The notes under the pieces were generated by a model. It did not search any database. It saw only the letters and a program-made list of their open reading frames with translations, and was not told where the DNA came from. Shown one piece after another: positions 28,393 through 32,726 of a DNA stretch of 64,000 nt. This DNA is from an uncultured bacterium. GTDB taxonomy: Bacteria; Bacillota; Clostridia; Lachnospirales; Lachnospiraceae. Where the stretch lies: positions 1 to 64,000 of the forward strand of contig CANPIC010000002.1 of the NCBI GenBank assembly GCA_947574055.1, written 5' to 3'. Numbering within the stretch: the stretch's first letter is position 1; each line of letters starts with the position of its first letter. Made by a program: the position numbers and the translations under genes.

Positions 28393-28421
28393 TTGGTATT
28401 TTGTGCAAAGAGTTGTATAAT
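28393..28421 (+). promoter_or_regulatory. Promoter of the Hsp90-like operon
   Basis: TTGGTA (28393-28398), 17 bases, then perfect TATAAT (28416-28421). Transcription should begin near 28428. No heat-shock CIRCE-type inverted repeat is visible. Confidence 0.75.
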
Positions 28422-28525
28422 ATCCATAAGCAGCAAGAGTAAGTCAGATTGTAGCAACATAAAAGTGGACTAAAATGAGCCCGAACGGGAGAGATGGGGA
28501 TCGGCAGCTGAGGAGGATTCCGCCC

Positions 28526-30382
28526 ATGGGCAGGGAAATGAGGGGAAGAAGGATGAAAGATTATCGTTTTCAGGTGAATTTAGGCGGTATGATCGAGATA
28601 TTGTCAGATCATTTATACAGCAGCCCTGATGTCTATATAAGGGAATTGTTGCAAAATGGTGTGGATGCCATAACCGGGCGTATGATTCGGGAAAAAGAGG
28701 AGAAAGAAGCAGGGCGGCAGGCTTCGGAAATTGCGGGCAGGATTGTTTTGGAGATTGAGGAGGGCAGACAGCTTATTTTTTCCGATAACGGCCAGGGGTT
28801 AACGGAGGAGGAGATTCACCAGTTTCTGGCGATTATCGGTGAGTCCTCCAAGCGTAATCCGGCTGACGGGCGGATACGGACAGACTATATCGGACGGTTC
28901 GGGATCGGTCTTTTATCCTGTTTCATGGTGTCAGATCATATCCGGATGCTGACCAGATCTGCCGGTAAAGAGGCACCGGTTCTTGAATGGCAGGGCAGAC
29001 CCGATGGGACATATACAATCCGCCGGATGGAACAGGAGCAGGTCGGCAAAGGGGATATGGCTTTCGGGACGCAGGTCATTCTCTCGGCAAAGCCGGGCAG
29101 GGAAGACTATTTCACGGAGAAGGTTATCCGCAGGCTGCTCACCTACTATGGGATGCTGCTGCCGTTTCCGATTCTTGTCCGTGTGCATGGAAAAGAAGAG
29201 CAGATCAACCCTATTTATCTGCCCTGGGACGGCAGAGAGACGAATAAACAGGAACTGATGCTGTTTGGGCAGATGATGTTTGAAGAGCAGTTTATGGATT
29301 GTGTTCCCCTGCGCAGTGAGTCGGGAAATGTATCCGGCGTGGCCTATATTATCAAATATCCGGTTTTACCATCGGCAAAGGGGAGTCACCGTATCTATCT
29401 GAAAAATATGCTGTTGACGGAAAAGGGTGACAATCTGATCCCTGACTGGGCAGTGTTTACCAAATGCATCATCAATGCCACTGATCTGCGTCCCACGGCT
29501 TCCAGAGAAGGGTTTTATGTGGACGAAGTGCTGGAGAGCGCCAGGGACGCCATTGAAGATGCCTTGATAGACTATATTGCAGGGATCGCGGAGGATGAGA
29601 GAGAAGTCTTTGACCACTTTTTCCATATCCACAAACTCACCCTGATGTCACTTGCGCTGGCCGCACCCAAACTGTTTGGGATACTGGTGGATTACTGTGA
29701 GTTTGAGACAACACGGGGACTGCAGACCGGCTATGATCTGCGGACCTGCGCAGAGCCGCTTGTCTATGCGCCCACGGAAGCAAAATATAAGCAGCTTTCC
29801 CAGCTTTTCTTTGCCCAGGATAAGATGCTGATCAATGTATCCTATGTACATTCGCTGGAACTTCTCATGCGACTGGGACAACTCTACGGTCTGGAAGTAC
29901 ATCCGGTCGATGACTGGAGCGTGGAAGATCTGATGGAAGATCTGACACCGGATGATCAGGACGACAGTTTCGCCTTTCAGAAAGCGGCCAACCGGATCTT
30001 AAAGGCCTATGACTGCCGGGCGGAACTGAAATATTTTTCGCCGTATAATCAGCCCACTTTTTATCTGATGGATGAAAAAATACTGCTCAAGCGCCAGATT
30101 GAGGCTTCCCGTTCGCAGGCGGACTCCATGTTCTTTCAGATGCTGGATGCCTTTACGGCGGAGATTCCCGGCGATACGGCGGCAGTGCTGTATTTTAATT
30201 ACAACAATCCTCTTGTAAAGAAACTGACAGAGAGGGAGGCGGAAGCGGATCTGAAGATACTGGTGGAGATTTTGTATGTACAGGCCCTGCAGATCGGTGG
30301 TTTTACGCTGCATAACAACGAACTGGGAATGTTGAACCGCAATATTCTGACACTGATGGAAAGGGGCCTTTCCGATGAATGA
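28526..30382 (+). CDS. Hsp90-family ATPase (HtpG-like, divergent)
   Basis: A 618-aa protein (609 from ATG 28553). The GHKL ATPase domain is intact: YIRELLQNGVDA (catalytic Glu40, Asn44, Asp47), FSDNGQGLTEEE and IGRFGIGLLSCF. The middle domain has the catalytic loop TASREGF. The C-terminal third (about 380 onward) shows little of the usual HtpG sequence, though the total length is normal. I prefer ATG 28526 because AGGAGG lies nine bases upstream; 28553 is weaker. The stop overlaps the next gene by 8 bases (ATGAATGA). The two following paralogous helical proteins are likely partners, by inference. Confidence 0.9.
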   Translation: MGREMRGRRMKDYRFQVNLGGMIEILSDHLYSSPDVYIRELLQNGVDAITGRMIREKEEKEAGRQASEIAGRIVLEIEEGRQLIFSDNGQGLTEEEIHQFLAIIGESSKRNPADGRIRTDYIGRFGIGLLSCFMVSDHIRMLTRSAGKEAPVLEWQGRPDGTYTIRRMEQEQVGKGDMAFGTQVILSAKPGREDYFTEKVIRRLLTYYGMLLPFPILVRVHGKEEQINPIYLPWDGRETNKQELMLFGQMMFEEQFMDCVPLRSESGNVSGVAYIIKYPVLPSAKGSHRIYLKNMLLTEKGDNLIPDWAVFTKCIINATDLRPTASREGFYVDEVLESARDAIEDALIDYIAGIAEDEREVFDHFFHIHKLTLMSLALAAPKLFGILVDYCEFETTRGLQTGYDLRTCAEPLVYAPTEAKYKQLSQLFFAQDKMLINVSYVHSLELLMRLGQLYGLEVHPVDDWSVEDLMEDLTPDDQDDSFAFQKAANRILKAYDCRAELKYFSPYNQPTFYLMDEKILLKRQIEASRSQADSMFFQMLDAFTAEIPGDTAAVLYFNYNNPLVKKLTEREAEADLKILVEILYVQALQIGGFTLHNNELGMLNRNILTLMERGLSDE

Positions 30383-31499
30383 GAAATATACGGCAGATGG
30401 CTACTTCCCGGAAGAGATAAAAAGAGCCTTCGAGGCGCTGGAACACGGAAACGCCAAAATAGCGGCAATTCGCAGTGCCATAGAAGCGGCAGATGCCAGC
30501 GACGACACGCCTTTCCGGATCTATTTCCGGCTGGAATTGTGCCGGGAATCCTGTTTCTACGGCGACTGTATGGATATGATGGTGATCTTTCCCCAGGTGC
30601 TGGCCATTGCAGACCGGTATCCCGATACACCGGCTACCTGTTATGAGCCCGGTTATCTGGACGCTATGGATCATGTGTTATGGGTGTATAAGTGGATCCT
30701 GGAAGAGTGCTGCAATTTTTACCAGGTTCCCATGGCAGACTGTTTGAAGTTTTTTGAAGACTTTAGACGGCGTAGCCTGGCATATGGATACAATCTGCGC
30801 CCTTACTATTATTATCTGTATCTTTTTTATGAAAAAATCGATCCGGTGAAGTCACGGGAAGCCTTTCATATGTTTGAACAGATTCCCCGGGATGATAACT
30901 GCGACTGCAGGGCTTGTGAACGTAATACCATCATTGATTTCTATCTGCAGCAGGGACAGATGGAACGGGCAAAGGAATTGTCGGCGGAGATTGAGAACTT
31001 TGACCTGACCTGCGGACATGACAAAAAGGAGGCCTGGCTGCGGTTAAAACGCCATTATATGCAGCATTATCTGGGGCGACGGGAATTTGAGGAAGCAGAA
31101 ACCTACTGCCATATTCTGGAGCGCCAGCGGATGAAGGATACGGAATTTCAGAGATGGGATGATTTCCTGTACTGCTATGCCTACCTGAACATGGGAAAAG
31201 CGCTGCGGATTTACAAAGCGCACTGGAAGGAATGGCTGGAAGAGAGACATCCTTCGACCATTTTTTCTGTCAATAGAAATATCACCTGTTTTTTTAAGAA
31301 ATTGCAGCAGGAGAGAAAACAGGCGACGATCAAACTTTCCCTTGATCCGGCCTTTCCTCTGTATGAGGAGAGCGGACAGTACAGCATTGCCAGTCTGTAC
31401 CGGTTTTATTATAAGCGGGCCAGGGAGGTGGCGGAGCGTTTTGATGAAAGAAACGGCTCGCATTATTATTGCAATCAGTTGACAGAAGTATTGTCATAA
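30375..31499 (+). CDS. Helical-repeat (TPR-like) protein of unknown function, paralogue A
   Basis: A 374-aa predicted soluble, mostly helical protein with no signal peptide or membrane segment. Repeated helix pairs such as MERAKELSAEIENF and FEEAETYCHILERQ look like tetratricopeptide units. A cysteine cluster, NCDCRACERN (about residues 178-187), and a later TCGHD could bind metal or support a disulfide. The start overlaps the Hsp90-like gene by eight bases, so translation is coupled. It closely resembles the next gene (identical blocks TPFRIYFRLELC, ADRYPDTP, FYGD), indicating a tandem duplication. No named family is recognised. Confidence 0.85.
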   Translation: MNEKYTADGYFPEEIKRAFEALEHGNAKIAAIRSAIEAADASDDTPFRIYFRLELCRESCFYGDCMDMMVIFPQVLAIADRYPDTPATCYEPGYLDAMDHVLWVYKWILEECCNFYQVPMADCLKFFEDFRRRSLAYGYNLRPYYYYLYLFYEKIDPVKSREAFHMFEQIPRDDNCDCRACERNTIIDFYLQQGQMERAKELSAEIENFDLTCGHDKKEAWLRLKRHYMQHYLGRREFEEAETYCHILERQRMKDTEFQRWDDFLYCYAYLNMGKALRIYKAHWKEWLEERHPSTIFSVNRNITCFFKKLQQERKQATIKLSLDPAFPLYEESGQYSIASLYRFYYKRAREVAERFDERNGSHYYCNQLTEVLS

Positions 31500-31583
31500 A
31501 CAGGCAGGGTGCTTTGTATCTGCAGGAGGCTTTTCCGTACGGAGTACCGGCCGGGCGTATTTGAGAAAGGAGCCGGATTAACC

Positions 31584-32726
31584 ATGAAAGACCAACAGGG
31601 AGAGCGTCTTTACGAACCGGAAAAACTCAAACAGCTTTGTGATCGTGCAGAGCACGGGATCGCCAGAAGGGAAGCGCTTCGTGAGGCCATTGCCCAGGCG
31701 GATGCCCACAACGACACTCCCTTTCGCATCTATTTTCGACTGGAACTGTGTCAGGAGTCCAATTTTTATGGGGACAGTTTGGATATGATGGTGATTTTTC
31801 CCGAGGCGCTGGCCATCGCCGACCGTTATCCGGATACGCCCTGTACGAGATATAATAACAGGATTTTTCAAAACTGTATGGGCCATATTTTATGGGTTTA
31901 TAAATGGATTCTGAGCTGCTGTGATGAATTTTATCAGATTCCGATGGCGGTCTGTGAGAAATTTTTTGAGGATTTCAAACGGCGCAGTCTGGCTTACGGA
32001 TTCAATCTGCGCGCCTATTATCTGTACCGTTATTATTTTTATAATTCCATGGATCTGGAAGAGGAGGCGAGAGCAGCATTTTATGCGTATGAAAGTCTGC
32101 CCAGGGACAGCAACTGCGACTGCAAAGCCTGTGAGCGTAACGTCAGTGTCAATTTCTACCTGGATATGGATGATTGGGAAAAGGCGAAAGAACTGGCGGC
32201 GGATATCGAGAATCATTCTCTTCGCTGCGGACATGACCGGATGGCGGCCTGGCTGCGCCTCCAGCGCCATTATATGAATTATTATCTGAGCTCGCAGCGG
32301 CGCAATTTTGCTGAAGGGGAGAAATACTGCAAACTGATCGAGCGCCATATGATCAGCGCCATCGAGTATCAGGAATGGGACAGCTTCGTATACTGCTATG
32401 CGCATACGAATCTAGGCAAAGCTCTGCAAATATATAAGAATCACTGGAAAGACTGGGAAAAGGAACGCAATCCCTCCAGCGAATACTATAGCTGTAAAAA
32501 TATCATGCGTTTTTTTAAGAAGCTGGGTGAAGTGAGGAAAAGTAAGACCGTGAAATTGCAGATGGAGCCTTCTTTTCCTCTGTATCAGAAAAATGGTCAG
32601 TATGAAATCAACGGCCTGTACCAGTATTATTATAACAGAGCCAGAAAGGTTGCGGAACTTTTTGATGCCCGCAATGGCACGGATTGCTTCTGTCACTGGC
32701 TGGAAAGAGCCGCGGAGGAAGGGTGA
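31584..32726 (+). CDS. Helical-repeat (TPR-like) protein of unknown function, paralogue B
   Basis: A 380-aa protein, paralogous to the preceding gene over nearly its whole length. Shared blocks are TPFRIYFRLELC, DMMVIFP, FKRRSLAYG, NCDCKACERN, CGHD and the ending RKVAELFDARNG. ATG 31584 is used, with GAAAGGAG 11 bases upstream; the ORF track's earlier start (31509) has no ribosome-binding site and lies outside the region shared with the paralogue. It is the last gene of the Hsp90-like unit. Keeping two copies suggests a heteromeric complex or two client specificities, as inference. Confidence 0.85.
   Translation: MKDQQGERLYEPEKLKQLCDRAEHGIARREALREAIAQADAHNDTPFRIYFRLELCQESNFYGDSLDMMVIFPEALAIADRYPDTPCTRYNNRIFQNCMGHILWVYKWILSCCDEFYQIPMAVCEKFFEDFKRRSLAYGFNLRAYYLYRYYFYNSMDLEEEARAAFYAYESLPRDSNCDCKACERNVSVNFYLDMDDWEKAKELAADIENHSLRCGHDRMAAWLRLQRHYMNYYLSSQRRNFAEGEKYCKLIERHMISAIEYQEWDSFVYCYAHTNLGKALQIYKNHWKDWEKERNPSSEYYSCKNIMRFFKKLGEVRKSKTVKLQMEPSFPLYQKNGQYEINGLYQYYYNRARKVAELFDARNGTDCFCHWLERAAEEG

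Follow-up and report, generated by a model that had tools for sequence, protein, structure and literature searches.

The analyzed window (64,000 nucleotides), from a gut bacterium, contains three intact genes lying one after another on the + strand, which encode an Hsp90-family ATPase (P0001, NCBIfam NF010683; 28553..30382, 609 aa), a TPR/PPR-type helical-repeat protein (partner A; 30375..31499, 374 aa) and a paralogue of the latter (partner B; 31584..32726, 380 aa). The start of P0001 is best placed at 28553 (MKDYRFQVNL, preceded by GGGGAAGAAGG) rather than at 28475, because relatives share an MKDYRFQVNL-like beginning and a strong Shine-Dalgarno-like stretch is present upstream. The end of the Hsp90 gene, including its stop codon, and the start of the partner A gene overlap by 8 bases on the + strand (30375..30382, ATGAATGA), exactly as proposed in a preliminary description of this DNA, and relatives repeatedly show such overlaps, of 4 or 8 bases. 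The same description assigned the trio its own promoter and no heat-shock operator. Upstream of the Hsp90 gene, the best sigma-70-like promoter of the region (TTGGTA-17-TATAAT; 28393..28421, + strand) has 10 of 12 matches; this is weak evidence for a dedicated promoter, since the region holds 11 promoter-like sites and chance alone would give 6.7. A search of the window for the CIRCE operator with up to 3 mismatches allowed returned nothing, so that the second statement holds for CIRCE. The trio is surrounded by ordinary chromosomal genes, with a Band-7 protein, a NUDIX regulator and an SNF-type symporter encoded upstream, and an iron alcohol dehydrogenase, a histidine kinase and a response regulator encoded downstream.

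P0001 is a complete NF010683 Hsp90 ATPase and not an HtpG. It scored 579 bits against the NF010683 profile over residues 3-607 (curated cut-off 455), whereas the score against the HtpG profile NF003555 was 179.9 bits (176 bits in the genome search), below the cut-off of 371. Solved HtpG, TRAP1 and Hsp82 proteins were matched by phmmer (E~1e-25), and the ATP/catalytic residues E31, N35, D78 and R318 are intact in P0001 and invariant across 54 relatives and 29 HtpG proteins. HtpG, the canonical bacterial Hsp90, shares the fold and catalytic residues of P0001, but 68 positions conserved within the NF010683 set are different in HtpG. The predicted model of P0001 (pLDDT 86) matches full-length Hsp90 structures with TM-scores of ~0.65 over ~650 alignment columns, and the protein has the Hsp90 N-M-C architecture together with the ATPase residues. 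Thus, the intact Hsp90-type ATPase of the preliminary description was confirmed, while the C-terminal third that it called divergent is so in sequence compared with HtpG but has an Hsp90-like predicted fold. P0001 is the sole full-length Hsp90 found in the window genome (88% complete), in which no canonical HtpG above the cut-off was found either. NF010683 (PRK14083, 'HSP90 family protein'), of which P0001 is a clear member with a nearly full-length match, is already a named NCBI family, and its model record, as shown, covers the Hsp90 alone with no mention of a partner. The earlier suggestion of a new system may thus be narrowed to the partner and the pairing, since these alone look new.

The two partners are 58% identical over 364 aa (E=2e-150), which bears out their earlier description as tandem paralogues. 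Neither of them matched a Pfam or NCBIfam family; Pfam TPR profiles gave sub-threshold matches for partner A and none for partner B, and homologues in Listeria and Streptomyces pass TPR_8 and TPR_12, respectively. The AlphaFold model of partner A, based on 67 homologues (the alignments for structure modeling were built without sequences from annotated records), has a pLDDT of 94.3, a pTM of 0.90 and 17 helices. Its best Foldseek matches are PPR, TPR, NprR, MalT and APC/C solenoids, with a probability of ~1 and no E below 0.001, so that the partners are predicted to be all-alpha TPR/PPR-type solenoids of paired helices, in agreement with the TPR-like nature that had been ascribed to them. A family of unrelated function, which would have spoken against the proposal, was not found for the partners in Pfam, NCBIfam or PADLOC searches; weak Pfam matches to ArgoMid and Csm6-HEPN were dropped as they are below the cut-off and inconsistent between the paralogues. 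Among PHROG clusters of unknown function, both partners matched phrog_34905 (E 5e-16) and P0001 matched phrog_32952 (E 4e-97). These clusters are virus-derived, but P0002 has no phage record in INPHARED and no match in PLSDB, and P0001 is unmatched in IMG/VR (close-relative patterns); a phage origin was therefore rejected.

The partner family is characterized by a signature comprising (S)DCxACE, a further cysteine ~32 residues on (often CAExPH) and FDxRNG near the end. In partner A, the alignment of 67 homologues places the CDCRAC motif (C176, C178, C181) at 30900..30917 and the CGH motif with the third conserved cysteine (C213, H215) at 31011..31019, both on the + strand; in partner B, the corresponding CDCKAC and CGH motifs are located at 32115..32132 and 32226..32234 of the same strand. 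C178 and C181 are both present in 57 of the 67 aligned homologues and both absent in the other 10, and C213 is kept in all 57 rows having the pair, whereas 7 of the 10 rows without it also lack C213. This all-or-none pattern suggests that the three cysteines form one joint site, either metal or redox. TPR regulators of the RRNPP/MalT type bind ligands. It might accordingly be asked whether the pair is a regulatory or sensory module, in which the solenoid would bind a peptide, a small molecule or a metal and switch the Hsp90 ATPase (or the reverse), serving as a stress or redox switch via the cysteine triad. The cysteines behaving as one unit across the family, as well as NprR and MalT domain III among the Foldseek matches, point in this direction. 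However, the matches to TPR/PPR solenoids are of similar quality across many functions (TM-scores mostly 0.2-0.6), and profile searches of the window proteins revealed neither a DNA-binding nor a catalytic output domain. This reading is possible, albeit less supported, and we consider it rather improbable.

To examine the conservation of the gene neighborhood, the Hsp90 alignment was scanned over 84,980 species genomes, and the best 80 of at least 578 loci, ranked by similarity to P0001, were taken, a set that is biased toward NF010683. Four of them are cut by contig ends and were left out, resulting in 76 evaluable NF010683 loci. The partner gene lies immediately downstream of the Hsp90 gene in 68 of these, typically with junctions overlapping by 8, 4 or 1 bases. 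It is upstream in one locus (L100) and convergent within 400 bases in another (L138), and in the remaining six (L065, L075, L092, L101, L104 and L114) it is found elsewhere in the genome; all 76 loci thus have a partner gene somewhere in the genome, one of which is broken. The broken copy belongs to L092, where the partner (G723:C1:1585510-1586365) contains stop codons and is separated from the Hsp90 gene by ~9 kb that include a recombinase-like gene, which makes this locus a decaying pair. Loci with a confirmed partner occur in Bacillota, Planctomycetota, Myxococcota and Acidobacteriota, and annotated records add the pair in Streptomyces (with a 1033-aa partner), Listeria (two tandem partners) and Paenibacillus. 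This brings the pairing to at least five phyla (Bacillota, Actinomycetota, Myxococcota, Planctomycetota and Acidobacteriota). By contrast, 29 HtpG loci from the same order all lack a partner within at most 1.5 kb on each side (less at contig ends). With dense bacterial genes, neighbors are common, and the two genes could have come together by chance or operon convenience with no functional relation; nevertheless, the cross-phylum linkage, the identical presence patterns given below and the clean HtpG control already refute this for the linkage, and we regard it as extremely improbable. Even close relatives of the window locus have different flanking genes, and no third gene family recurs beside the pair across phyla. 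A third conserved operon member was accordingly rejected, and the unit appears to be the pair. A phosphorylase-like gene follows the pair in L066 (11956-13341), and the same phosphorylase-like gene abuts the Hsp90 gene in L065 (5035-6342), whose partner is elsewhere in the genome. An apparent partner-symporter fusion in L059 is an artefact caused by an N in the stop codon, through which the ORF caller reads. No literature on the Hsp90-partner pairing was found in open-access papers, which is weak as a sign of absence.

The survey of neighbors proposed in the preliminary description thus came out in its favor, and near-perfect co-occurrence of the two families was also observed. Among 399 Bacillota genomes, the Hsp90 is present in 6 and the partner in exactly those 6, five of which belong to one family and are not independent. 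In 68 Myxococcota genomes, both were found in the same 11 and always adjacent, and one further genome (G775) has an intact partner (L157, 4514-5692) with no NF010683 Hsp90 found; this orphan could show what the partner does alone. Of 14 named control genomes, only Corynebacterium glutamicum and Deinobacterium chartae exceed the NF010683 cut-off, and these are also the only two matching phrog_34905, a result that refers to gene presence. In addition, an Actinomyces oris replicon (L142, 4199-8916) encodes a 1011-aa partner near a YbjN-domain gene, with no Hsp90 in ~6 kb. The Hsp90 and partner trees are correlated (Mantel r=0.87, uncorrected for species history), which may reflect shared species history only, and sequence change is faster in the partner than in the Hsp90 (e.g., 74% vs 82% identity in G007).

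The strongest rival explanation is that the TPR protein is a dedicated client, i.e., the Hsp90 would fold or keep active a fast-evolving partner, which would do the real job (such as ligand or protein binding via its solenoid). Tight linkage and co-occurrence are equally expected of a chaperone-client pair, and the faster evolution of the partner and its gain of extra domains agree with this. On the other hand, the Hsp90 seems at least as dependent, since a partner gene accompanies it in every evaluable locus genome, and one intact partner persists without an Hsp90 (in G775). Moreover, a TPR solenoid generally serves as a stable scaffold for binding other proteins. Overall, we consider a client role for the partner unlikely, though the most probable of the alternatives.

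Two or three partners are present in 12 of the 68 loci, indicating that the duplication seen in the window happened repeatedly; it is lineage-specific, and most relatives carry one partner. Several Oscillospiraceae-type loci have an additional partner copy of about 700-790 aa. Two of these long partners were examined and carry a C-terminal DUF4026 domain (L074, 6519-8789; L130, 12881-15247), accompanied by DUF2314 in L130, while the C-terminal part of other copies of 690-790 aa has no domain assignment. A similar gene order was observed in Xanthomonas, Salmonella and Pseudomonas records (L047, L048 and L050), in which an Hsp90-like gene is directly followed by a gene for a 764-774 aa helical/TPR-like protein, in which a CxxC stretch is conserved and the C-terminal domain is distinct. 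Unlike the window partners, these proteins are missed by the partner profile; a profile comparison between the window partner and the proteobacterial long protein aligned the CxxC region with a probability of 2%, so homology of the 764-aa protein to the window family was not established. A Nonomuraea homologue (L141) has no adjoining Hsp90 gene.

The extended partners raise the question of whether the Hsp90 and its partner might form a sensor or immunity complex of a conflict module (anti-phage or toxin-immunity), as DUF2314 has been described as an immunity-type domain (PMC3482391). In Listeria, a SUKH protein is encoded after the pair, and signals of selection were reported for lmo0941, a gene whose function is unknown (PMC6901971). 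We take lmo0941 to be the first Listeria partner by gene order, since lmo0942 adjoins fri (PMC3534079), as the Hsp90 gene does in the Listeria record. A cyanobacterial relative could be added to these hints: a Pseudanabaena plasmid (L051, 7932-10565) encodes an 877-aa Hsp90-like protein whose C-terminus weakly matches CAP12/TIR and whose gene adjoins a TIR gene and a TPR gene, which makes a defence use of an Hsp90 possible there. Nevertheless, the neighbors in the window are ordinary chromosomal genes and no defence gene recurs beside the pair. PADLOC returned nothing significant for the partners and generic matches for P0001, which reflect only the ATPase domain shared with TmtA and a restriction enzyme, and assignment of the locus to a defence system was rejected. 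A conflict role is possible but less supported, and we hold it to be quite improbable.

Taken together, the intact Hsp90 with its catalytic residues, the TPR/PPR-type partner, the linkage and co-occurrence of the two genes and the joint behavior of the cysteines are best accommodated by a two-component chaperone module consisting of an NF010683 Hsp90 and a dedicated TPR adaptor or co-chaperone, a reading that we favor with moderate confidence. In such a module, the Hsp90 dimer would be bound by its TPR-solenoid partner, which would bring or hold a restricted set of clients or tune the Hsp90 ATPase, and the start/stop overlap would couple the translation of the two genes. The three-cysteine site of the partner would probably hold a structural metal and possibly serve as a redox switch. 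The duplicated genes in the window probably provide two adaptors with different client or ligand preferences for one Hsp90; repeated duplication and the DUF4026/DUF2314 C-terminal extension fit an adaptor with diversifying specificity. Several observations count against an adaptor module, including the partners without an Hsp90 in G775 and Actinomyces oris, the variable Hsp90 tails with no obvious docking motif, the lack of any natural Hsp90-partner fusion among the scanned loci, and the faster evolution of the partner, which a client could show as well.

The contrast between a lone bacterial Hsp90 and a TPR-assisted eukaryotic Hsp90 is standard in the field. Co-chaperones are reported to be missing so far for bacterial Hsp90 (PMC7926864) and for E. 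coli HtpG (PMC4428384), whereas eukaryotic TPR co-chaperones dock on the conserved C-terminal MEEVD of Hsp90 (PMC13107436). The window partner resembles Hop/Sti1, FKBP51/52, PP5 and Cpr6 in being a TPR-type solenoid associated with an Hsp90, an analogy of how they might work; it differs from these MEEVD-docking proteins in having its own signature (the cysteines, DCxAC and FDxRNG). In addition, P0001 ends in ...SDE, overlapping the start codon of partner A, and the tails of 80 relatives vary. An MEEVD-like tail on the NF010683 Hsp90 was therefore rejected and, contrary to what the eukaryotic parallel in the preliminary description might imply, docking must differ from that in eukaryotes. Bacteria are held to have no dedicated Hsp90 helper, and the partner is a strong candidate for one. 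There is about an even chance, in our judgment, that it represents the first dedicated family of bacterial Hsp90 co-chaperones, a TPR solenoid with a cysteine site that occurs in at least five phyla, docks without MEEVD and originated separately from the eukaryotic Hsp90-TPR system. A second bacterial Hsp90 family, one that has attracted little notice and whose TPR partner is close to obligatory, would make the question of bacterial Hsp90 co-chaperones directly testable with two purified proteins. It would also provide a name and a lead for an unannotated protein family in Listeria, Streptomyces, Paenibacillus, myxobacteria, planctomycetes and gut Clostridia.
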